Source of the DNA: a virus
IMG/VR virus record: IMGVR_UViG_3300049218_000502
Location: 1-21,516 of that record
Reading direction: 5' to 3' (one strand)
Length of the DNA stretch: 21,516 nucleotides
The translations under genes and the position numbers were made by a program. The notes below the pieces were generated by a model that was given only the letters and a program-made list of their open reading frames with translations, was not told where the DNA came from and made no database searches. Of the stretch, positions 1 through 21,516 are shown piece after piece; position 1 is the stretch's first letter, and every line of letters begins with the position of its first letter.

Positions 1-1041
1 CTACAGGTCCAGACTGGATGCAACCGATCGCAGGTAAGTCGGGTCAAAATGGCGGTAGGTTCGGCGCAGCGTGGCGGGGTCTGTGGCCAGCCAGTCGGCG
101 GCTTGGTCGATCGGAACGCGGTCCATGGCCATGAATGAGGCGACCGAGTGTTTCATGTGATGCGGCGTCGGTTTCCAGGTTAGCCCGGCCGCGACGCACA
201 GCTTTGCAAACGACCACCGAAGGCCGAACGGCACCGGCTTGCCCTGCCAGGCCACCACGTAATCGCACTCCGGGATGCGGTCCTGCTTTGCTGCGGCCAG
301 CACGGCGCGGAGCTGCGTCGTCATCGGCACCACGGCGCGGCGCTTCTTGGTCAGGGTGCGGCCCGGTTCCTGGAAATTGACGATACCGCGGTCCAGATCC
401 ACTCGATCCCACGTGAGGGTTAGGATTGACGTGCGGCGCGCCCCCGTGAACAAAGCCAGCGCGGTGAACACGCGGACGTGGCCGGTCGCACATTCCAGCA
501 GTTTCCGAGCTTCGTCTTTCGTGAGGTATCGGTCCCGCGGCTGGCTATCTGCCGGCGTCTCAAGTTGGGGAGGCCGAAGCAGGAACCCGTCTGCCCAAGC
601 CTTCCTGAGCGCGGCCCGAAGCGTGTTGAACTCTCGCCGCAGCGTGCCTGGCGCGACGGGCCGCGGCTTGTGGTCCTTGGCGTTGGGTCGCGGCTTGGTG
701 ACTCGCTCAACGGCGTAGCGGTCCCACCGGGCCTGCGTCACCTGGTCGACCCGGAGCGCGCCAAGCGCGGCGGTGAGAGGCTTTGCGGCTTCCAGCAACC
801 TGGTGTGGGCCATCACCTTGCCTTCTCGCGCTGTCGTGTAGCGGGTCAGGGCCTCGGCAACGGTTAGCTCTGTGGGACGACGCTCAAGGCTGGCCTCAAA
901 GTCCGCGAGGAACTGTCTAGCGCGCGTTGGATTCGCCGTTCCTGTCGAAGTGCGGCGGCGGGTGTCTCCATCCCACCAGACGACGCCGTAGAGGCCTCGG
1001 CGCAATTCGAGCTTGGGGCCGGTTGGGCGTGGGCGGGGCAT
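1..1041 (-). CDS. int: Tyrosine site-specific integrase (prophage)
   Basis: Phage-type tyrosine recombinase that would integrate and excise the prophage. Residue numbers here count from an upstream in-frame ATG at 1110; I prefer the ATG at 1041 (residue 24, MPRPRPTGPK), giving 346 aa, because the extra 23 residues overlap the excisionase HTH coding region. An N-terminal arm-binding region and an SAM-like core-binding region precede the catalytic domain (about 195-369). Visible catalytic elements are R225 in TGARR, K255/K256, box II PHHMKH (317-321) and the nucleophile Y352 in RTYRHFDP. Two positions are unusual: the box II Arg is Lys (K320), and the usual LGH motif reads LAT (T343). Similar Lys-bearing integrases are, as I recall, known in alphaproteobacterial prophages, so it may be active. 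It is the last gene of the leftward unit; its stop codon is at the window edge, so the att site should lie just outside. Confidence 0.95.
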   Translation of the reverse strand: MPRPRPTGPKLELRRGLYGVVWWDGDTRRRTSTGTANPTRARQFLADFEASLERRPTELTVAEALTRYTTAREGKVMAHTRLLEAAKPLTAALGALRVDQVTQARWDRYAVERVTKPRPNAKDHKPRPVAPGTLRREFNTLRAALRKAWADGFLLRPPQLETPADSQPRDRYLTKDEARKLLECATGHVRVFTALALFTGARRTSILTLTWDRVDLDRGIVNFQEPGRTLTKKRRAVVPMTTQLRAVLAAAKQDRIPECDYVVAWQGKPVPFGLRWSFAKLCVAAGLTWKPTPHHMKHSVASFMAMDRVPIDQAADWLATDPATLRRTYRHFDPTYLRSVASSLDL

Positions 1042-1211
1042 AGATGGGTTTCCAGGTAGGCTGACAGGTGCGCCGGCGCTATCCTGATACAGCCGTTCAG
1101 CCGATAGCAAGCCAGCCTGTGTGTGCGAATGGCGCGCCGAATTGTCTCGGGGTGGCAGTCCAGTTGTTCGGCTGCGGCCTCGACGGTCAGGAGGCGGGGG
1201 AGGTCAAGCAT
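864..1211 (-). CDS. Excisionase-like helix-turn-helix DNA-binding protein
   Basis: 115 aa. The first 60 or so residues form a MerR/excisionase-type winged HTH: LLTVEAAAEQLDCHPETIRR, then a basic stretch and a hydrophobic strand (CIRIAPAHLSAYLE). Such proteins bend att DNA and direct the integrase to excision. The ATG at 1211 follows a GGGGGA ribosome site and overlaps the preceding stop codon by 8 nt. The reading frame stays open about 180 nt into the integrase gene, so the Ser/Ala-rich C-terminal half (after about residue 60) is read from integrase DNA in another frame and may carry no function of its own. The place next to int supports an Xis role, but a plain transcription regulator is possible. 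Confidence 0.75.
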   Translation of the reverse strand: MLDLPRLLTVEAAAEQLDCHPETIRRAIRTHRLACYRLNGCIRIAPAHLSAYLETHLCPAHAQPAPSSNCAEASTASSGGMETPAAALRQERRIQRALDSSSRTLRPALSVVPQS

Positions 1212-3974: not shown

Positions 3975-4963
3975 GCTGCAACAGCTTCGGACTGAGCAAC
4001 CCCGGCGATAGCCTGGTCCATATCGTCCAGCCCATCAGGCGCCGATGCGGCAGTGGCGCGCTGGGCGTCAAACGCCTGCGCCGCGGACTTCAAGTCAGCC
4101 GGGCAGCCACCGCCCGAACTCAACTGCTTCTGCAAAGCCACAGGCAACGCCTTCCACGCCGCGGCAAGAGCCACCATGCCCTGTTCCGTGGTGGTGCGAA
4201 GCATGTTGCGCGCCCGTTCGACTTCGGGGTTTAGCGCCTTCGCGCCGTCCACCCAATCCCGCAGGGCCTTCCCGTCCGCCGCGGTAATGTAGCCCTGGTG
4301 GCGGCCAAGAATGGCCCGCAATTCGCCGGGACATTTGAGCGTCTGCTGCTCCATGCCCTCGTTCCACATCATGAGAGATGCGGTCATCTCAAACATGAAG
4401 TTGGGTTCTTGGATCGGGAGCACGCCCAGCTTCGTATATTCGACCTTGCCGTTGACGGTTTCCAGCTTGACCTTATCGCGGGCGCGGACAGACAGCAGGA
4501 TGTGCATGTCGCATTGCAGCAGCACATTCATGAAAGACTTGTGCTCGTCTTTCGCAAGGTTCCACTTCTTGACCTTCAGCGTGGTTCCGGGAGGGTCGGC
4601 AATGTCGTGGCAGCCGCCCTGGCCTTCCCACTCATGACTGATGCTGTCGATGATGAGGACTTCCACGCCGGCCGCTTGGAACTCCAACACAGCTTGCTTG
4701 TATCGTTCCGGGCTGAACGGGGGGTCCAAGTCCCCAATCAGGAACTTCTGAACCTCGCCTGCCTCGTTCTTGAGACAATCGGCGTAGAGGCTGCCGCGCC
4801 GGTTCTCGGTGTCGAGCAACCCGACCTTGGCGGCATTGTAGTTTGCCAGCCCGTAGGCGAGCTGCAAGAGGCTGTATGTCTTGCCGCTGCCGCTTAGCCC
4901 GGCAGCAGCGATGACCATGCGGGCGCCTTCACGTTCGGCCACGCGGATGTTGACGACACTCAT
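3971..4963 (-). CDS. P-loop ATPase, AAA_24/Sak4-like phage recombinase candidate
   Basis: 330 aa. Walker A is G22-LSGSGKT29 and Walker B is VLIID106, followed by SISHEWEGQGG; the arrangement fits the RecA-like AAA_24 family that includes phage Sak4 single-strand annealing/recombination ATPases. A C-terminal region of about 90 residues (from 240) is Ala-rich and divergent. The ATG has a GAAGGGAG ribosome site and starts 13 nt after the exonuclease stop, one of the few real spacers in this operon. Pairing with a RecE-like exonuclease supports a role in phage homologous recombination: the nuclease makes 3' tails and the ATPase anneals or protects them. The family call is firm; the exact activity is inferred. 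Confidence 0.8.
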   Translation of the reverse strand: MSVVNIRVAEREGARMVIAAAGLSGSGKTYSLLQLAYGLANYNAAKVGLLDTENRRGSLYADCLKNEAGEVQKFLIGDLDPPFSPERYKQAVLEFQAAGVEVLIIDSISHEWEGQGGCHDIADPPGTTLKVKKWNLAKDEHKSFMNVLLQCDMHILLSVRARDKVKLETVNGKVEYTKLGVLPIQEPNFMFEMTASLMMWNEGMEQQTLKCPGELRAILGRHQGYITAADGKALRDWVDGAKALNPEVERARNMLRTTTEQGMVALAAAWKALPVALQKQLSSGGGCPADLKSAAQAFDAQRATAASAPDGLDDMDQAIAGVAQSEAVAA

Positions 4964-4976
4964 AGTGGTGCTCCCT

Positions 4977-5924
4977 TCAAACTATGGATTGCGCGAGATA
5001 CCAGCCGGGCAGGCTGATCGTTTCCAGGCCGGGCCAAAGCCCTGACTTCTTGGCGGCTGCATACCGAGCGAGGTCGGCGCGGTACTCGGCTCGGCCCACG
5101 TCGCGGCTTTGCTGATCCAACACGAACAGCCGCACGGGATAGCGCGAGCGGTCGCGCGTCGTGCTGACCACGAGGAACGGAAAGCCCCGCAGCGCCTCGC
5201 CAGTCACGGCTTGGTGGCCATCCCCGTAGAAGGCGTCCTGGACGTGGTAGCGGTAGTCGTGGATGGACCGGGCGAATTTGCCGATGTCGGCGGTCGTCTT
5301 CACGTCCAGCGTCATGCCCAGCGTCGGGATGCTCTTGTCGTGGCGGGCGCGGCACAACTCGCCGGTCTGCTCATCGTGCCAGTAGTAGGACCGTTCCACC
5401 GCGCCCGGCGCTTCCAGCAACTTGCGGGCAACGGGGTGCGCCATGGCGCTGTCCCGCATTAGGACCAGCTTCTTCCACTCGGCCGGCGACAGCACTTTGC
5501 GGCCCGCGAGGCCCTTGGCCCACTCGCGTTGCAGCACATCAGAGACCGGGGCTGCGGGGTCATTGTCCAGCAGCAGCGTGGTCAAGGCCGACTTCCCAGC
5601 CGACGCTTTGTAAGCGATGCCGCGGCCGTCCAGAGCGGCCTTGAGATCGTCCACCGTCACGATCGCATCGGCGGGCGGCGTCCAGTCCACGATATACAGG
5701 CCGGCGAACGTGTCAGGCTCCAGCAGCAACGAATGGAACGCCGTGCCGAGGTCCACCGCCGCCTTGCAGTCGGTGTCCTTCGGCGCGTTGCGCGACCATT
5801 CCAACAGCGCAGGGGCGTTGTGGATCAAATCCAGGTTGGACTTCGACACCCCGGGGCCTGAGTGGTAGGCATCGGGGTCCAAGCCGTCGATAATGCCCAG
5901 CCGGGCAGGCGAGATCGCGTTCAT
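4977..5924 (-). CDS. RecE-like PD-(D/E)XK exonuclease
   Basis: 315 aa, matching the exonuclease VIII/RecE C-terminal nuclease family (PDDEXK_1). Key residues seen: H64 in LGTAFH, E178 in VERSYYW, D196 in CRARHDK, D207 and K209 in LDVKTT, and the motif YRYHVQDAFY (Q229). These build the metal site that resects one strand from double-strand ends. Between about 90 and 125 is an insert that looks like a SAP-type helical motif (DLKAALDGRGIAYKASAGKS), seen in related phage nucleases. The ATG has GGAGG seven bases upstream and an ATGA overlap with a 50-residue ORF before it. It is followed by the Sak4-like ATPase, forming a two-component recombination module. Confidence 0.88.
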   Translation of the reverse strand: MNAISPARLGIIDGLDPDAYHSGPGVSKSNLDLIHNAPALLEWSRNAPKDTDCKAAVDLGTAFHSLLLEPDTFAGLYIVDWTPPADAIVTVDDLKAALDGRGIAYKASAGKSALTTLLLDNDPAAPVSDVLQREWAKGLAGRKVLSPAEWKKLVLMRDSAMAHPVARKLLEAPGAVERSYYWHDEQTGELCRARHDKSIPTLGMTLDVKTTADIGKFARSIHDYRYHVQDAFYGDGHQAVTGEALRGFPFLVVSTTRDRSRYPVRLFVLDQQSRDVGRAEYRADLARYAAAKKSGLWPGLETISLPGWYLAQSIV

Positions 5925-6073
5925 ACCCGTTCCTCCAAATCCAGCGTCCGCTGCCGCCAGTCATCAATCCGCTCGGCCAGCCATGCCCGATGGTCGTCCA
6001 GCCGTTCGGGCAGCGTGCGGCTGTCGCGCGTTATGCGGTCGGCGTGCGCGGCGGGGTGTTCGTGGGGGTTCAC
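5921..6073 (-). CDS. Very small charged helical protein
   Basis: 50 aa, found by eye. A GTG at 6073 overlaps the upstream stop as GTGA, and its TGA overlaps the exonuclease ATG as ATGA, so it fills a gap of about 150 nt precisely. The sequence is dense in Arg, Asp, Glu and Leu with two Trp (HRAWLAERIDDWRQRTLDLE), consistent with one or two amphipathic helices. No family is recognised. Translation could mainly serve to couple the ribosome to the exonuclease gene. Confidence 0.6.
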   Translation of the reverse strand: MNPHEHPAAHADRITRDSRTLPERLDDHRAWLAERIDDWRQRTLDLEERV

Positions 6074-6273
6074 AGCGCCCACCCCTTCGTCTCAACCGCC
6101 ACCACCCGTGCCGGCCCCTCCAGCAGCGCCACCAGCGCCGGAACCTCGGCAATCGCGGCCTCGTGCGTCGGCAGCATCATCGTCACGCTATGGCCGCGAT
6201 CGTTGACGACCTGGGCCATCCAGGCGGGGTTGCCGAAGGCGACGGCGCGGCGGCGGATGGTGGCGTGGGTCAT
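6070..6273 (-). CDS. Small hypothetical protein
   Basis: 67 aa, ATG start in an ATGA overlap, stop in a GTGA overlap. Alternating strands and a helix are suggested (AWMAQVVNDRGHSVTMMLPT, then EAAIAEVPALVALLEG, then ARVVAVETKGWAL). No motif or family recognised; it is of a size and layout typical for accessory genes in phage leftward operons. Confidence 0.6.
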   Translation of the reverse strand: MTHATIRRRAVAFGNPAWMAQVVNDRGHSVTMMLPTHEAAIAEVPALVALLEGPARVVAVETKGWAL

Positions 6274-6461
6274 GTCCGCACCCGTCGGTAAATCAGCCCG
6301 GGCGCGACCACTATTTCGTCGCTGCGAAGCTGGTCCATGGAGATCGACCCATCTGCATTTTTGGCCGCAGGGCGGTCCATCGCGTAACGGGCTCCAGCGT
6401 GGATCACAACGAAGCCATTCCGGTCCGCCGGTTCATAGACGCCTGTTTGCTTGTCGCTCAT
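6270..6461 (-). CDS. Small hypothetical protein
   Basis: 63 aa. The ATG at 6461 is chosen because it has a strong GGGAGGAG ribosome site and an ATGA overlap; an open frame further upstream is translation of the neighbouring gene in another frame. The sequence has a beta-rich outline (GFVVIHAGARYAM, EIVVAPGLIYRRVRT) and an acidic middle. Not recognised. Confidence 0.6.
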   Translation of the reverse strand: MSDKQTGVYEPADRNGFVVIHAGARYAMDRPAAKNADGSISMDQLRSDEIVVAPGLIYRRVRT

Positions 6462-6706
6462 CCCACCACTCCTCCCGGCGTCGCAAACGGCTTGGGCCAC
6501 CCGCGCGGCGGAAACCGCACCACAACGTTTTCGGCCAGCGCGGCATCCTCCTGCGCGGCTTCGACAATGCGGTCCCGGTCGCGCTCGATCGCTTCGGCGC
6601 GGGCCACGTAGGCGGACAGCAGGTCGGCTGCATCGCGTTGCTCGGCTGGTGTCAGGATGCCAGCCTGCATGGCTAGGATGAGGCGGCGGGTGTGGTCGTG
6701 GGTCAT
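6458..6706 (-). CDS. Small helical hypothetical protein
   Basis: 82 aa with ATGA overlaps on both sides. The first 60 residues look like a helical hairpin (TRRLILAMQAGILTPAEQRD, then a Glu/Arg/Ala-rich helix AYVARAEAIERDRDRIVEAA); the tail is Pro/Gly-rich. Comparable small proteins occur often in phage early regions with no known role. Confidence 0.6.
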   Translation of the reverse strand: MTHDHTRRLILAMQAGILTPAEQRDAADLLSAYVARAEAIERDRDRIVEAAQEDAALAENVVVRFPPRGWPKPFATPGGVVG

Positions 6707-7404
6707 GGCGCAGCGGCCTGCTCAGCGGCGCATGCTCGGATATCGTCCATCGCATCCGAGTTGCTGGCGTAAAAGTTCGGAACAGGCTTACCGGGGCGAG
6801 AAGCGGCATAAATCAATGCACCCGCTGCAGCTGGTCCGATTTTAGATTCCAGTTGTGCGCCTGCCTCTCCGGCCAGCGTAATGGCCCACCCGGCGCGGCA
6901 GTGTGTGGTGCCGCACGTGTGCCAGTCGCGCATATTGAGGCTGCCCCCGGCATCAATCGCGGCAGCAATCGCCACATCAATTTTGGGGACAATGGGCGCA
7001 GGAGGCAGGACCGCGCCCGTCAGGTCCGCGCCCCTCAGGACCGCGCCCCTCAGGACCGCGCCCGTCAGGTCCGCGCCCGTCAGGTCCGCGCGCCTCAGGA
7101 CCGCGCCCGTCAGGTCCGCGCCCGTCAGGTCCGCGCGCCTCAGGACCGCGCCCCTCAGGACCGCGCCCCTCAGGACCGCGCCCGTCAGGTCCGCGCGCCT
7201 CAGGACCGCGCGCCTCAGGACCGCGCCCGTCAGGACCGCGCCCGTCAGGTCCGCGCCCGTCAGGTCCGCGCCCGTCTGAAATGCCCACTTTATTGCAGCG
7301 CCAATCTTGACGCCAATGCTGGGCAAATTAATGTCGATTTCTGCGGCGAACTGCACCTTGCCGGTCCAGCGGTTTTCAACTTCGAACAGTTCTGTTTCTG
7401 ACAT
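6703..7404 (-). CDS. Pentapeptide-repeat protein
   Basis: 233 aa. The ATG at 7404 (MSETELFEVE) has an AGGAGGG ribosome site; the frame is open much further upstream but that part reads another gene out of frame. A 45-residue leader precedes about 18 uninterrupted pentapeptides (46-133) using only the words ADLTG, AVLTG, AVLRR and AVLRG, which should fold as a right-handed quadrilateral beta-helix. A separate C-terminal domain of about 75 residues contains NMRDWHTCGTTHCRAGW and FYASNSDAMDDIRACA, a module I associate with pentapeptide proteins of alphaproteobacterial phages. Some pentapeptide proteins mimic DNA and bind gyrase; nothing here proves that. Confidence 0.85.
   Translation of the reverse strand: MSETELFEVENRWTGKVQFAAEIDINLPSIGVKIGAAIKWAFQTGADLTGADLTGAVLTGAVLRRAVLRRADLTGAVLRGAVLRGAVLRRADLTGADLTGAVLRRADLTGADLTGAVLRGAVLRGADLTGAVLPPAPIVPKIDVAIAAAIDAGGSLNMRDWHTCGTTHCRAGWAITLAGEAGAQLESKIGPAAAGALIYAASRPGKPVPNFYASNSDAMDDIRACAAEQAAAP
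7006..7269 (-). repeat. 15-bp tandem repeat array encoding pentapeptides
   Basis: Roughly 17-18 head-to-tail 15-bp units inside the pentapeptide gene. On the coding strand each full unit reads GCG-GWC-CTG-ASG-SGC, so 12 of 15 positions are constant and only three vary (D/V, T/R and G/R). Such near-identity at third codon positions suggests recent expansion or gene conversion rather than old selected repeats. It is not a CRISPR array: no spacers are present. Confidence 0.9.
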
Positions 7405-10740: not shown

Positions 10741-10946
10741 CCCGCAGTCGCGATCCGATCACGACGCCACCCAGCCTCGACGCGGTGCACGAGCGTCCGT
10801 CGCTGCTGGCGCAATTCGTCCTCGACATGGATCAGGCAAAGCCAGAGAAACAGTCCGAAGTGGATCTGGCGTTCTGGCTGGCTCTCGTTGCCCTAAACAG
10901 TGTCGTCTGGGGCGGAGTCTTGCTGATCGTGTGGTGGTCGCTATGA
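10737..10946 (+). CDS. Small membrane-anchored hypothetical protein
   Basis: 69 aa. The ATG at 10737 has a GGGGGA ribosome site and forms an ATGA overlap. A polar, acidic N-terminal part of about 43 residues precedes one C-terminal hydrophobic span (FWLALVALNSVVWGGVLLIV), so the bulk should face the cytoplasm if the tail is inserted. It is the third membrane protein in a row after the Cro-like gene. Function unknown; superinfection exclusion is one possibility given its position. Confidence 0.65.
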   Translation: MTRSRDPITTPPSLDAVHERPSLLAQFVLDMDQAKPEKQSEVDLAFWLALVALNSVVWGGVLLIVWWSL

Positions 10947-11488
10947 GAAGCGATGCGTGGTCGCAAGAGTCCATATCGGCGCTGAGGCAGCTTTGGGCTG
11001 CAGGATACTCGACCGCTGAAATCAGTCACCGCATGGGAGTGTCCAAAAACTCTATCGTCGGCAAGGCGCGGCGGCTGGGGCTGCCAAGTCGTCCAACCCC
11101 GATCCGGCGCGATACTGATGCTCAGATTGCGGCCCGCCGGGCTGCGTTTATCAAAATGTGGAACGATGGCGTGGAGAGGTCCGACATTGTATCGGCCTTG
11201 GGTCTCACGCGAGGGCGTTACGAACATACCGTTGCCAAGCTCGTTGCCACGGGGGCGATTCAGGCCCGCCCAGTCGGCAGGCAGCGTCAGGTTAACGATC
11301 AGCCCGTTTCTGACGAGCGCATAGCTCGGCCAGACACTACCAAGCTGTGCAGAAAGTGCCAAAAGTCGTTTCTGAGCGCTAACGGCGTCATGCACTATTG
11401 CAACGACTGCAAACGGCATTCCGCGGCGTGGCAGTCGGGCGCTTCTAATATCGTCCTTGCAGGCGTGCGCATCAGTGAGCGCCCCTGA
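10943..11488 (+). CDS. GcrA-like regulator with extra HTH and zinc ribbon
   Basis: 181 aa, ATG in an ATGA overlap with the membrane-protein gene. Residues 5-50 (WSQESISALRQLWAAGYSTA, then EISHRMGVSKNSIVGKARRLGLPSR) match the N-terminal DNA-binding domain of GcrA, the alphaproteobacterial cell-cycle regulator that works with sigma-70 at GANTC-methylated promoters. A second HTH-like segment follows (DIVSALGLTRGRYEHTVAKL, about 81-100). The C terminus has a zinc ribbon C136-x2-C139 ... C153-x2-C156. Chromosomal GcrA lacks such a middle HTH as far as I know. A role in diverting host promoters, or in phage transcription, is inference. Confidence 0.8.
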   Translation: MRSDAWSQESISALRQLWAAGYSTAEISHRMGVSKNSIVGKARRLGLPSRPTPIRRDTDAQIAARRAAFIKMWNDGVERSDIVSALGLTRGRYEHTVAKLVATGAIQARPVGRQRQVNDQPVSDERIARPDTTKLCRKCQKSFLSANGVMHYCNDCKRHSAAWQSGASNIVLAGVRISERP

Positions 11489-11489
11489 C

Positions 11490-11891
11490 ATGCAGATCGT
11501 CGCGCCTCCGCCCCCTGGGCGCGACGTTGCGGCGGCTGTGCTGCGCTGGGACGCGCGCCGGTCGCCGCTAAACGGTTGTCCTGACGCGGACAAAATCGGG
11601 CCGGGCTGCGGGGATCGGGACGCCGATGCCCGCCTTACAAAATCCGGTCCCGTGGCGGCGACGGCCGCGGCGTCAATGGTTCGATCGGCCACGCTAGGCC
11701 GGCCAGCGGGTGCGAGCCCCGCGGTTTCCTCCCGCACCTCCGGCAGCCCGGCGTTCCACCGCCAGGCTGCCGACTTTTTCGAGGGGTTACATACTACCTG
11801 CACACTCACTCCGTCTGTCTCTGCACGGGATAACGATGACGGAGCGGATCAGTGCCGACAACCAACAAGGGGGCGCGGATGCTCGCCCTAA
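11490..11891 (+). CDS. Doubtful hypothetical ORF in a 390-bp gap
   Basis: 133 aa if real. The ATG lies one base after the GcrA-like stop and the frame runs 13 nt into the next gene. The protein is Ala/Pro/Asp/Arg-rich with no clear fold signal, and the last 40 residues read through what looks like intergenic DNA. No other frame in 11489-11878 is better on the plus strand. The stretch could equally be a leader or control region for the unit starting at 11879; I see no convincing promoter or terminator there. Confidence 0.3.
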   Translation: MQIVAPPPPGRDVAAAVLRWDARRSPLNGCPDADKIGPGCGDRDADARLTKSGPVAATAAASMVRSATLGRPAGASPAVSSRTSGSPAFHRQAADFFEGLHTTCTLTPSVSARDNDDGADQCRQPTRGRGCSP

Positions 11892-16822: not shown

Positions 16823-17169
16823 GAGGCGTGCCCCTATCGTGCCTGATGGCCCCGATCGGTTCCAAGACCGTCACCATCAATGGCTCGCACTGGAAAGAAA
16901 GCGCGCCGTGGGCTGGGTTGGACTTTCACCGAGCGGAATTGCGTTCCGCGTCGATCTGGAACGACGACGACTACCACCTGGGCGTCCCATGGATGCATCC
17001 AGGCGACCGCGTGGGCCACATCGACGATCCCGACTGGTGGGCGGTTTACCGCGTCCGGCTCAAGCGTGGGTGGAAGTCTTTTGTTTGGAATGGCGCGACT
17101 TGGTGCGTGAGCAAGGCACCGCCGCTTTCATACGCCCCGGCTCGGCGGCTTTTGGAGGGTGAGGGATGA
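16819..17169 (+). CDS. Hypothetical phage protein
   Basis: 116 aa, ATG in an ATGA overlap and stop in an ATGA overlap. Rich in Trp and Asp with a beta outline: SKTVTINGSHWKES, SIWNDDDYHLGVPWMHPGD, DDPDWWAVYRVRLKRGW, SFVWNGATWC. The pattern suggests a small beta-barrel or SH3-like fold. No family recognised, no catalytic residues identified. Confidence 0.65.
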   Translation: MRGVPLSCLMAPIGSKTVTINGSHWKESAPWAGLDFHRAELRSASIWNDDDYHLGVPWMHPGDRVGHIDDPDWWAVYRVRLKRGWKSFVWNGATWCVSKAPPLSYAPARRLLEGEG

Positions 17170-17777
17170 CCATAGCGCAGCGTGTCGCCGCCGAGCGCCG
17201 GGCGGAGCGTGAGCGCATCCGTCAGCTCAATACAAAAATAGCACCCGGACCAGACGGAGAGGATCACGGCATGGACCTTGGACCCGCAGCCCTTGCGCGC
17301 CCTTCCACCATCCAGCGCGTCGGGGGCCGTCTTCGTGGTGCTGGACAAAAGGAAGCAACACCAACTTATGCTCGGATGATCGACGCCACGACGATCTTTG
17401 AGCGGATGAACCTGTCGGCACAGCTGTCCGACCGGCAGGCGCAGGCAGGCCATCGAATACTGATGCTGCGGCATGCGGCCGGCATACTGCCGCGCGTCAC
17501 CGCAAAATACGTTATCGTTCAGCCGCCACCGCCCGATGACGATGACGACCCCGAAACCGCCGCTGACGTCGATCCTCTTTTCCCGGACGGCTATGACGCG
17601 CGGACCTATCACCGATGGGCGCTGCGTCAGCTTGCGCCACCAGTGGCGGCTATGATTGATCGCGCCTGCGAGTGGACGCCAGAGAACCCCGTTGGCCGGC
17701 CCGAGACGCGGTTCCTGGCGACGTTTCAGGAAGGCCTTGATAAGCTCGCTGACATTTTCTCAATCAAGAAGCGATAA
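17166..17777 (+). CDS. Hypothetical protein at the end of the early operon
   Basis: 203 aa, ATG in an ATGA overlap. The N terminus is a charged helix (AQRVAAERRAERERIRQLN). The middle (YARMIDATTIFERMNLSAQL, SDRQAQAGHRILMLRHAAGI) is helical; an acidic linker with five Asp in a row (DDDDD) follows, then a helical C-terminal domain with ARTYHRWALRQLAPPVAAMI. It is the last gene before the packaging module, where phages often place the late-gene activator or antiterminator, but I see no diagnostic motif. Confidence 0.65.
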   Translation: MTIAQRVAAERRAERERIRQLNTKIAPGPDGEDHGMDLGPAALARPSTIQRVGGRLRGAGQKEATPTYARMIDATTIFERMNLSAQLSDRQAQAGHRILMLRHAAGILPRVTAKYVIVQPPPPDDDDDPETAADVDPLFPDGYDARTYHRWALRQLAPPVAAMIDRACEWTPENPVGRPETRFLATFQEGLDKLADIFSIKKR

Positions 17778-17866
17778 AGTGCTTGACCGGCTCGGTCACG
17801 GTTTCGTATCCAATCGCCGGCAGCACAGCTATGTCCATATGGAACTTGTCGCAAAGCGTGGTTCCT

Positions 17867-18172
17867 ATGCCGACTAAGCCGCCTGTCTTTCGACCATCAT
17901 ATGCGTCACCACCTGCAGTCATTCGCGCGAAAGCCGATCGAGAGCTCGGGTCTGCATCATCGCGTGGTTACGATCGTTCATGGCAGCGTGTGCGTCTGCA
18001 TGCGTTGAAAGCGCAGCCTCTGTGTCAAGACTGCCTGCCCCGCGTGACTATAGCGACCGAGGTGCATCACGTCATCAAGGTCAAGGACGATCCTGATCAG
18101 CGTCTCACTCTGTCGAACCTGCGCTGCCTCTGCACGACGTGCCATGCAACTAGGACGGGGCGAGGCGAATGA
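17867..18172 (+). CDS. HNH endonuclease of the packaging module
   Basis: 101 aa from the ATG at 17867; the opening MPTKPPVFRPSYASPP is typical for these proteins, though the ribosome site is weak and in-frame starts at 17831 (ATG) and 17783 (TTG) exist. HNH elements seen: C53-x2-C56, H67-H68 (EVHHVIKVKDD), N84 (LSNLRCLC) and C89-x2-C92-H93. HNH proteins beside the terminase genes in HK97-like phages are known to assist terminase cleavage of packaged DNA. The 89 bases before it hold a TTGACC box but no good -10. Confidence 0.88.
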   Translation: MPTKPPVFRPSYASPPAVIRAKADRELGSASSRGYDRSWQRVRLHALKAQPLCQDCLPRVTIATEVHHVIKVKDDPDQRLTLSNLRCLCTTCHATRTGRGE

Positions 18173-18222
18173 ACTGGTCATGCGCCCAACGCTCGGTTCG
18201 ATCAATGTCATGCGTCCATCAA

Positions 18223-18234
18223 CCCCCTAGGGGG
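18223..18234. repeat. GC palindrome in the HNH-terminase gap
   Basis: CCCCC-TA-GGGGG, in the 162-bp non-coding gap between HNH and small terminase. With the next hairpin it marks a candidate cos/packaging recognition region; no T-tract follows directly. Confidence 0.5.
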
Positions 18235-18253
18235 GTCTCAGGGTCTGGGGCCT

Positions 18254-18271
18254 TTCGGTTTGTGGACCGAA
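18254..18271. repeat. Inverted repeat, 6-bp arms and 6-base loop
   Basis: TTCGGT-N6-ACCGAA, twenty bases after the GC palindrome. A run of six T lies eleven bases downstream (18282-18287), so a leaky terminator is an alternative to a packaging site. Confidence 0.45.
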
Positions 18272-18334
18272 TGTCAACTGCTTTTTTGTGCGCCCACCCA
18301 GGATTTCCGCACATCCAAACTCCGAGGCGCTGAA

Positions 18335-18739
18335 ATGCAGAAGGGGACGAAACCCGCGCTGCCTTCAGCTAAAATAGCTCGCGGCACCTTCAAGCCCTAT
18401 CGCGACAGCAACTACGTTCAGGTCATTGAGCCTGATGCTCTTCCATCGCAGCCGGATTGGCTGACGGAGGCGGGGAGCGCGGTCTGGCTTGACGACATTG
18501 GTCGCGTCTCATCCGTGCGTCTCGCTAACGAGCGCGATAGCACGATGTTCGCCACCTACTGCAATTTGCAGGGCGCGATCGTCCAGGCATGGCGTGCGGG
18601 CGAGGTTCCGCCGGCGGCGCATTTGATGGAAGCGAGGAAGATGGCGGAGCAGTTTGGGCTGTTCGGGGCAAAGAGTCGGCTGACGAAGGCTGCCGAGCCA
18701 GGCAAGCCATCCGGAAATCCGTTTACCAAGACTAGGTGA
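18335..18739 (+). CDS. Phage terminase small subunit, P27 family
   Basis: 134 aa from the ATG at 18335, which has GAGG seven bases upstream. The small subunit recognises phage DNA and brings it to the large subunit. The family pattern is clear: QPDWLTEAGSAVWLDDIGRV, SVRLANERDSTMFATYCNLQ, a helical middle and GLFGAKSRLTKAAEPGKPSG near the end. The N terminus is basic. The large subunit begins five bases after the stop. Confidence 0.85.
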   Translation: MQKGTKPALPSAKIARGTFKPYRDSNYVQVIEPDALPSQPDWLTEAGSAVWLDDIGRVSSVRLANERDSTMFATYCNLQGAIVQAWRAGEVPPAAHLMEARKMAEQFGLFGAKSRLTKAAEPGKPSGNPFTKTR

Positions 18740-18743
18740 GGGC

Positions 18744-20522
18744 GTGGCTCATCAACCTGCGCTAACCCACACCAGAGACTACCCCGGCATCGCCAATCGC
18801 TACGCCCGCGATGTCGTCTCTGACCGTGTCGTCGCGTGCAAGTGGGTGCGGCTGGCGTGTCAGCGGCATCTGAGTGACATGAAGCGACGGGGCGATGACT
18901 GGCCTTATCGGTGGGATGCCTGGAACGCGGCCGACATCTGTGACTTCGCCGAGTTGCTGCCTCATATCGAGGGGCGCTGGGCGACGCCAACGTTGTTCCT
19001 GGAGCCATGGCAGGTCTTCACGCTGGCGGTGATCTTCGGGTGGCGACGAAAGGCTGATGGCGGCCGGCGGTTCAGCAAGGTGTATTGGGAGGTCGCTCGC
19101 AAGAACGCGAAGTCAACGATCGCGGCGGTGATCACGCTCTACTGCCTTACCAAAGAAAACGAGCCTGGCCCTTACGTGTTCATTGGGGCAACCACCGGCG
19201 CTCAGGCGCTGAAGGTCTTCCATCCTGCGAAAATGATGGCGAAGAAGTCGCCGGATTTGTGCGAGGCATTCGGGCTTCAGGTGTGGGCTAAGAGCATCAC
19301 GGAGCCGGGCGGTGGCTATATCCAGACGATCAACAGCAAGGGCAGCACGCAGGACGGGCACAACCCGCACTTGAGTGTGTTGGATGAGCTGCATGCCCAT
19401 AAGGACCGAGCGCTTTACGACGTGATGGACAGCGCCATGGGCGCTCGCTCAAACCCGCTGATGTGGATTATTACGACGGCCGGTTTCGACACCGAGACCG
19501 TCTGCTACGAGCAGCGGACCTTTGCGACGAAGGTGCTGGAAGGTGTGGTTGAAGCGAACCACTACTTCGGCATCATCTATACGCTGGACGATGATGAGGT
19601 TGAGGCCGCCAAGAAGGGGGACTTCAACCCGGCCAACTGGATCAAGGCCAACCCGAATCTCGGTGTGTCGGTCGGGATCGCAAATATGGAAGCCTCAGCA
19701 ACTGAGGCGCTGGCGCAGCCCGGCAAGTTGGCCGACTTCCTGACCAAAAAGCTGAACGTCTGGGTGTCAAGCCGGAACGGCCACGTCAACAACACTAGGT
19801 GGAAGGCGTGCAACGGCCCGGTCGACCTTGAGGATCTGCGGACGACGCCGTGCTGGATGGGCTACGACCTCGGCGCGACGTCGGATATGACGTCCTGGCG
19901 CCTAGTCTGGTGGCTGAAGGGCCGGGTGAAGACCTGGGGCCTACGCTATGTGCCGGCAGCCGCGGTCGATAGTCGGTCAAAGAAGAACGGCGTGCCATAT
20001 AGCCGATGGGTGTTGCAGCCTCCCGCAGGCAACTGGTCGCCCAGCAGCGACATCGGCGATCACTTGGCGCGGCGACGCCTGTTGAACACGACCGAGGGCG
20101 ACGTCACCGACTACGCTTACATTGAGCAGGACATTCGCTGGGCTATGGAGGTTTTCAACCTTCAAGGCATCGGCTTTGACAGTTGGAAATCGCAAGATTT
20201 GAACAGTCGACTGCAAGCGGATGGTGCGCCGCTTGTCGAGGTCCGTCAGGGGCACGCTACACTTTCCGGTCCAATGCAAGAATTGGACAGGCTATATTTG
20301 TCCAACGCGCTGGATCATGCCGGCGATGAAGTGCTGGCTTGGTGCGCTTCGAACGTGGTCGCTCGATCGGACCACAATGACAACCTGGTCCCATCCAAAA
20401 GATTGAGCGCCGAAAAGATTGACGATTACGCGGCGCTGCTGAATGCATTGGCCGTTGGGATGCACAGCGACATTGAGGAATCACCATACGCGGATGGGCG
20501 GGACATGCTGATCCTCGGCTAA
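18744..20522 (+). CDS. terL: Phage terminase large subunit (HK97/Terminase_1 type)
   Basis: 592 aa from a GTG, full length for the family. It powers packaging and cuts concatemers. The ATPase half has the Walker A variant EVARKNAKST (R119-S124), Walker B LSVLDELHAH (D214, E215) and coupling motif IITTAG (about 242-247). The nuclease half has D375 in MGYDLGATSDMTS and a C-terminal AEKIDDYAALLNAL matching the third metal-binding region. Walker A has Ala where Gly is more usual (RKNGKS), a variation I take as tolerated. Flanked by small subunit and portal as in siphoviruses. Confidence 0.95.
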   Translation: MAHQPALTHTRDYPGIANRYARDVVSDRVVACKWVRLACQRHLSDMKRRGDDWPYRWDAWNAADICDFAELLPHIEGRWATPTLFLEPWQVFTLAVIFGWRRKADGGRRFSKVYWEVARKNAKSTIAAVITLYCLTKENEPGPYVFIGATTGAQALKVFHPAKMMAKKSPDLCEAFGLQVWAKSITEPGGGYIQTINSKGSTQDGHNPHLSVLDELHAHKDRALYDVMDSAMGARSNPLMWIITTAGFDTETVCYEQRTFATKVLEGVVEANHYFGIIYTLDDDEVEAAKKGDFNPANWIKANPNLGVSVGIANMEASATEALAQPGKLADFLTKKLNVWVSSRNGHVNNTRWKACNGPVDLEDLRTTPCWMGYDLGATSDMTSWRLVWWLKGRVKTWGLRYVPAAAVDSRSKKNGVPYSRWVLQPPAGNWSPSSDIGDHLARRRLLNTTEGDVTDYAYIEQDIRWAMEVFNLQGIGFDSWKSQDLNSRLQADGAPLVEVRQGHATLSGPMQELDRLYLSNALDHAGDEVLAWCASNVVARSDHNDNLVPSKRLSAEKIDDYAALLNALAVGMHSDIEESPYADGRDMLILG

Positions 20523-20535
20523 CCCCGGAGATAAA

Positions 20536-21516
20536 ATGGGCCTGTGGTCAAAGATCGGCTCGATCGTAGGCCGCAAAACAGCCGACGCGGTCGGTTCGGA
20601 GTTGTGGGGCGACTACGCCTATTCCGGCGGGTCTAGTGCGGGCGTCGCGGTTAACAGCTTGTCGGCGATGCAGCATGTGGCAGTCATGGCATGCGTGTCG
20701 ATCCTGTCTGAAGACGTGGCAAAGCTGCCCTTGCAGGTCTGGCGCCGCCGAAAGGATGGCGGAAAGGATCAGATCAAGGATCACCCGCTCGCCAAGCTCC
20801 TGGCGCGGCCGAACGGCTGGCAGACCCGGTTTGAGTGGGTCGAGATGATGCAGGCGGCGCTCGTGCTGCGCGGCAATGCCTATTCGGTCATCCTGCGGGA
20901 CGGCCGCGGCACGCCGACGGCTCTGGTGCCCATTCACCCTGATCGGGTGACGCTCTTTGAAGCCCCAGGCGGTGAATACTTCTTTGCGGTGACCCGGCAG
21001 GGCCTATTCGAGACGGCATTGCTCCGCGACATGCCTCTGCTGATCCACAGCGAGGATATGCTTCACGTTCGGTGGCTGTCAGGGTGGAATTCGCTCCTCG
21101 GCATCTCCAGGATCGGGTTGATGCGCGAAGCTGTCGGCCTGGCGATGGCGCAGGAACAGCACGCCGGCCACTTCGCCGCGAACGGCGCCAGGCCAAGCGG
21201 CGTGCTGCATACCGAGCAGAAGCTGGACAAGGAAGTAATTGATCGGCTGGTGTCATCCTGGAAGCAGGATCAGGCCGGCTTCCGCAACAGCGGCAAGACC
21301 CGAGTGCTTGAGCAGGGCTTGCAGTGGCAGCAGTTGTCGATGTCCATGGTCGACGCCGATTTCATGCAGTCCCGTCGTTTCTCGGTCGAGGACATTGGCC
21401 GCGGGTTCCGCGTGCCGCTCTACAAATTGGGTGTCCCGTCCGAAGGGCAGGGAACCGCGATGATCCAGCAGGATCAGGAATACCTGAACAACGTCATCAG
21501 TGTTGAGTTGCACTGA
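20536..21516 (+). CDS. HK97-family portal protein, short C terminus
   Basis: 326 aa with a GGAGATAAA ribosome site; starts 13 bases after the large terminase. The portal is the dodecameric ring through which DNA enters the head. Family features: SAMQHVAVMACVSILSEDVA, KLPLQVWRR, HPLAKLLARPNGWQTRFEWV, GNAYSVILRD, IHSEDMLHVRWLSG and the closing FRVPLYKLGVPSEGQGTAMI with QQDQEYLNN. Family members usually run on for some 80-100 residues after that point. Here TGA follows VELH at the last three bases of the window, so the gene is either truncated by a stop or frameshift or continues as a second frame outside. Confidence 0.9.
   Translation: MGLWSKIGSIVGRKTADAVGSELWGDYAYSGGSSAGVAVNSLSAMQHVAVMACVSILSEDVAKLPLQVWRRRKDGGKDQIKDHPLAKLLARPNGWQTRFEWVEMMQAALVLRGNAYSVILRDGRGTPTALVPIHPDRVTLFEAPGGEYFFAVTRQGLFETALLRDMPLLIHSEDMLHVRWLSGWNSLLGISRIGLMREAVGLAMAQEQHAGHFAANGARPSGVLHTEQKLDKEVIDRLVSSWKQDQAGFRNSGKTRVLEQGLQWQQLSMSMVDADFMQSRRFSVEDIGRGFRVPLYKLGVPSEGQGTAMIQQDQEYLNNVISVELH

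Follow-up and report, generated by a model that had tools for sequence, protein, structure and literature searches.

The question raised by this locus is why a portal gene that begins in the expected manner stops short exactly where its record ends. The window, that is, the whole stretch of DNA analysed here, constitutes an entire IMG/VR virus record of 21,516 bases. Its last open reading frame (positions 20,536–21,516, plus strand) translates into a 326-aa HK97-type portal protein, MGLWSK...QQDQEYLNNVISVELH, followed by a TGA whose final base is also the final base of the window. The portal identity was established by two profiles scoring well above their cut-offs, PF04860 Phage_portal in Pfam (E-value 3.1e-75, 253.8 bits against a cut-off of 39.1) and TIGR01537 portal_HK97 (3e-54, 184.4 bits against 112.05). 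These profiles were matched only over positions 2–262 of 321 and 5–274 of 343, respectively, so that approximately 60–70 profile positions are missing from the C-terminal end. As the definition of a full-length HK97-type portal includes the C-terminal part, the window portal does not qualify as one.

Comparison with related phages led to the same result. The lengths of related portals were surveyed at 159 loci, with residues counted in the numbering of locus L003 (IMGVR_UViG_3300047334_000236) and duplicates removed for the counts of distinct portals; the N-terminal portal part was found at 137 loci, three of which ran off their locus. Among the 134 portal frames with a readable stop, 133 had at least 390 residues, and the 31 distinct relatives sharing at least 50% identity with the N-terminal part of L003 had 433–456 residues. 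The sole short relative in the survey was L052, with a frame closing at about residue 170. The L003 portal is 74% identical to the window portal and homologous to it up to the point discussed below, but it is uninterrupted and comprises 443 aa. More distant portals were also sought: a tblastn search against annotated phages matched 1721 records, every one of them below 60% identity, and 27 pattern-matched stretches in genome contigs yielded no confirmed portal relative. A sequence-only reading of the window had noticed that the frame closes with VELH and TGA well before the expected end, and had named equally short functional portals in relatives as the observation that would overturn this view. 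The profile ends and the longer relatives bear out the premature end, and no such group of short portals emerged, as 105 of 106 distinct related portals reach 398–698 residues.

The cause of the early stop was revealed by another IMG/VR record, L002, a contig of 4218 bases that is 100% identical to window positions 17,409–21,516 (4108 bases), although both records may go back to a single study or material and the independence of L002 as a sample is uncertain. The additional 110 bases by which this contig runs past the window end belong to the left end of an insertion sequence of the IS21 family. The first base of the element corresponds to window position 21,501, the third base of codon 322, and thus the initial 16 bases of its left end (21,501–21,516, plus strand) lie inside the window, identical to L002:4093–4108. 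The portal part encoded by the phage consists of codons 1–321 and two bases of codon 322 (20,536–21,500, plus strand), as indicated by PF04860, TIGR01537, and the alignment to relatives. In this alignment, the 321 N-terminal residues are conserved and the similarity to related portals breaks off at the junction. Read base by base, the VELH codons and the TGA occupy element bases 2–16, the stop codon itself (21,514–21,516, plus strand) being bases 14–16. Whichever of the three frames enters the element end, a stop is encountered by base 23, and an insertion in this orientation would therefore close the frame in any phase. The sequence-only reading had proposed that the bases after 21,516 be read for a continuation of the portal; those supplied by L002 explained the break, but no portal continuation was contained in the 110 bases.

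The assignment of the element relies on its terminal sequence and on its relatives. A blastn search with L002 from position 4093 onward matched 96 plasmid records, the best 10 of which belong to Roseomonas and Lichenicola with 83–86% identity, and istA of the IS21 family is annotated under the match in eight of these best 10. The left end aligns, from base 1 through to the start codon of istA, with IS21 elements of Roseomonas mucosa (CP099476.1) and Lichenicola cladoniae (NZ_CP053712.1); however, identity with such plasmid elements is 83–86% at best, with just 126 bases available here for comparison. In Lichenicola, the element occurs in two copies with different flanks that share 100% identity across 2489 bases, and both copies start at the base aligning with window position 21,501. 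Homologous elements carry istA, with integrase core and Mu-transposase C-terminal domains, and istB; for the inserted element, these genes are known from relatives only, except for the first four istA codons, at which the 126 element bases in L002 end. The terminal sequence begins with TG and is homologous to known IS21 ends, as is characteristic of this family. Two direct repeats within the 126 bases, identical at 16 of 20 positions, correspond to the left repeats L1 and L2; when the repeats were tested over 21 bases, 16 matched, and at least 15 matches were reached in four of 500 shuffles. PMC10122671 describes an IS21 left terminal repeat with two multiple repeats (L1/L2) and a 5 bp direct target repeat made by its element. 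Judged by its terminal features, the sequence of 126 bases fits the organisation described there. No target-site repeat was seen for three reference copies, with the boundaries of one of them (L017) being approximate.

Within the window, no second element end was found at up to three mismatches to a 28-base pattern, for which the 16 bases at the window edge are too few to match. An element-end pattern had no match in genome contigs. In viral contigs, such a pattern identified 11 stretches, one of which was the L002 contig again, and the matching portal half was absent from all 11. Two further search routes followed relatives of the genes expected beyond the element, namely an L003 ORF at 5386–6663, taken as the capsid protein and with relatives at 65 loci, and the C-terminal part of the portal, for which the best 80 of 259 alignment relatives were used. 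By these three routes, neither the right end of the element, nor the target repeat, nor the remaining portal was found, and the genes that follow the portal were likewise not found. Outside the pattern set, 159 loci were without any element end at up to four substitutions. The L003 ORF at 4088–5305, taken as the protease, was present at two loci, the contig of L003 itself and one 99% identical to it.

The position at which the record stops can also be considered in this context. Stop codons sit exactly at both of its ends, that of the portal frame at 21,514–21,516 and that of the integrase gene (1–1110, minus strand; phrog_1 integrase, 3.2e-41) at bases 1–3, while L002 continues for 110 bases beyond the right-hand one. 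Both ends coinciding with gene ends is what would be expected if a provirus had been trimmed from a longer contig at gene borders, and the record probably ends at the portal stop through such trimming beside transposase DNA. Five of the 11 element-end loci are metagenome loci, judging by their names; in four of these the contig breaks after 125–127 bases of the element, and in L030, the fifth, after 82. An assembler with a k-mer length near 127 breaks in this way at multi-copy repeats. Elsewhere in the window, two frames, at 10,832–11,809 (minus strand, 325 aa) and 17,166–17,777 (plus strand, 203 aa), are open and had no PHROGs match at an E-value of 0.001.

Taken together, it is highly likely that an IS21-family insertion split the portal gene of an HK97-type prophage, most likely disabling the prophage. 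The main competing possibility is an assembly chimera, in which phage DNA was wrongly joined to an insertion sequence copy from elsewhere and the true portal is intact. The frequency of contig breaks at this element (four of the five metagenome loci) and the failure to find the right junction in the element-end, capsid-relative, and portal-C-terminal searches are in line with a chimera. However, the junction is base-exact at the first base of the element and present in both the window and L002. In addition, this lineage was not encountered in uninterrupted form, as a pattern from the phage side matched only L003, the 74% relative, and L016, which is the same contig as L002. A chimera is thus considered very improbable.

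Even less probability was given to the other two explanations. A sequencing or frameshift error within an intact portal gene had been raised by the sequence-only reading, and an early frame end is the usual sign of such an error. However, L002 is identical over the 4108 bases including the junction and then runs into the insertion sequence, the sequence that follows the junction matches that of IS21 ends, and a tblastn search with the C-terminal part of a relative's portal had no match in any frame of L002 past the junction (126 bases available), which leaves an error with almost no plausibility. A genuinely short, functional portal would be consistent with the conservation of the first 321 residues, but the last four codons and the stop of the frame are part of the insertion sequence, and nearly all distinct relatives are much longer; the chance of this being the case is negligible. 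The split gene that the sequence-only reading had offered as one possibility is accordingly borne out, the cause being the insertion starting at 21,501, and its suggestion of a defective prophage gains support, by inference, from the same insertion.

In the favoured scenario of a disrupted gene, an element of the istA/istB type would have entered the portal gene between bases 2 and 3 of codon 322. The portal frame reads four codons into the left terminal repeat of the element and halts at the TGA located there, and the other approximately 120 codons would be expected beyond an element of about 2.5 kb. A portal without its last approximately 120 residues should fail to assemble a working ring, and a working ring from the C-terminally shortened protein is very probably ruled out here. 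As the loss of this part should block the ring, the prophage probably makes no particles alone, and particles would be expected only if a relative supplied the portal. Open frames are present for integrase, helicase, and terminase, including that of the terminase large subunit, the upstream neighbour of the portal (18,744–20,522, plus strand, 592 aa; Pfam TerL_ATPase and TerL_nuclease, phrog_9), and the damage may therefore be recent or limited. Regarding the host, the top matches of the insertion sequence are from Acetobacteraceae (Roseomonas and Lichenicola) and, of the phage records listed for the portal, Komagataeibacter phage phiKM1 scored highest, with 36% identity; these similarities do no more than hint at an acetic-acid-bacteria-like host.

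The insertion of an insertion sequence into a prophage gene is an ordinary kind of event. No published account of this portal insertion was found among literature titles and the beginnings of abstracts. A comparable case is nu1 of prophage Sp4 of E. coli O157 Sakai, disrupted by an insertion sequence according to the available text of PMC2669165. There, too, the broken gene is a prophage gene for packaging or the head; however, the host, gene, and phage are different, and the Sp4 element is not named in that text. At two other IMG/VR loci, similar elements likewise adjoin phage head or packaging genes. At L185:8091–9046 on the minus strand, a region also covered by L029, a frame resembling a terminase leads into an IS21 element from the subgroup of the window's element. 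The frame shares 31% identity with residues 57–376 of the window's terminase, and no remaining part of its terminase was detected across the 11 kb that were read. Element ends in L185 lie at 6949 and 12,589, 5.6 kb apart, and the former may belong to a separate or nested copy; no target repeat was seen if the two are paired, although they may not delimit one element. At L023:1–169, an IS21-type right end is located just before a distant portal frame, 30% identical to the L003 portal. This frame is open up to the junction and a possible GTG start lies 42 bases after the element end, so the gene may or may not be broken.

The remaining element-end loci have other neighbours and hence provide no evidence for targeting, and a set of 11 loci, obtained by pattern matching in a viral collection, cannot show a preference. 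That this IS21 subgroup breaks prophage head or packaging genes more often than expected by chance is accordingly considered improbable; if it were true, the reason could be host selection for cells whose prophages are disabled, or a preference of the elements for phage DNA. For the window itself, a single ordinary cause would account for both the short portal and the end of the record, which makes this record unsuitable for illustrating short portals. More generally, provirus trimming at gene edges can conceal an insertion sequence and mimic a naturally short gene.
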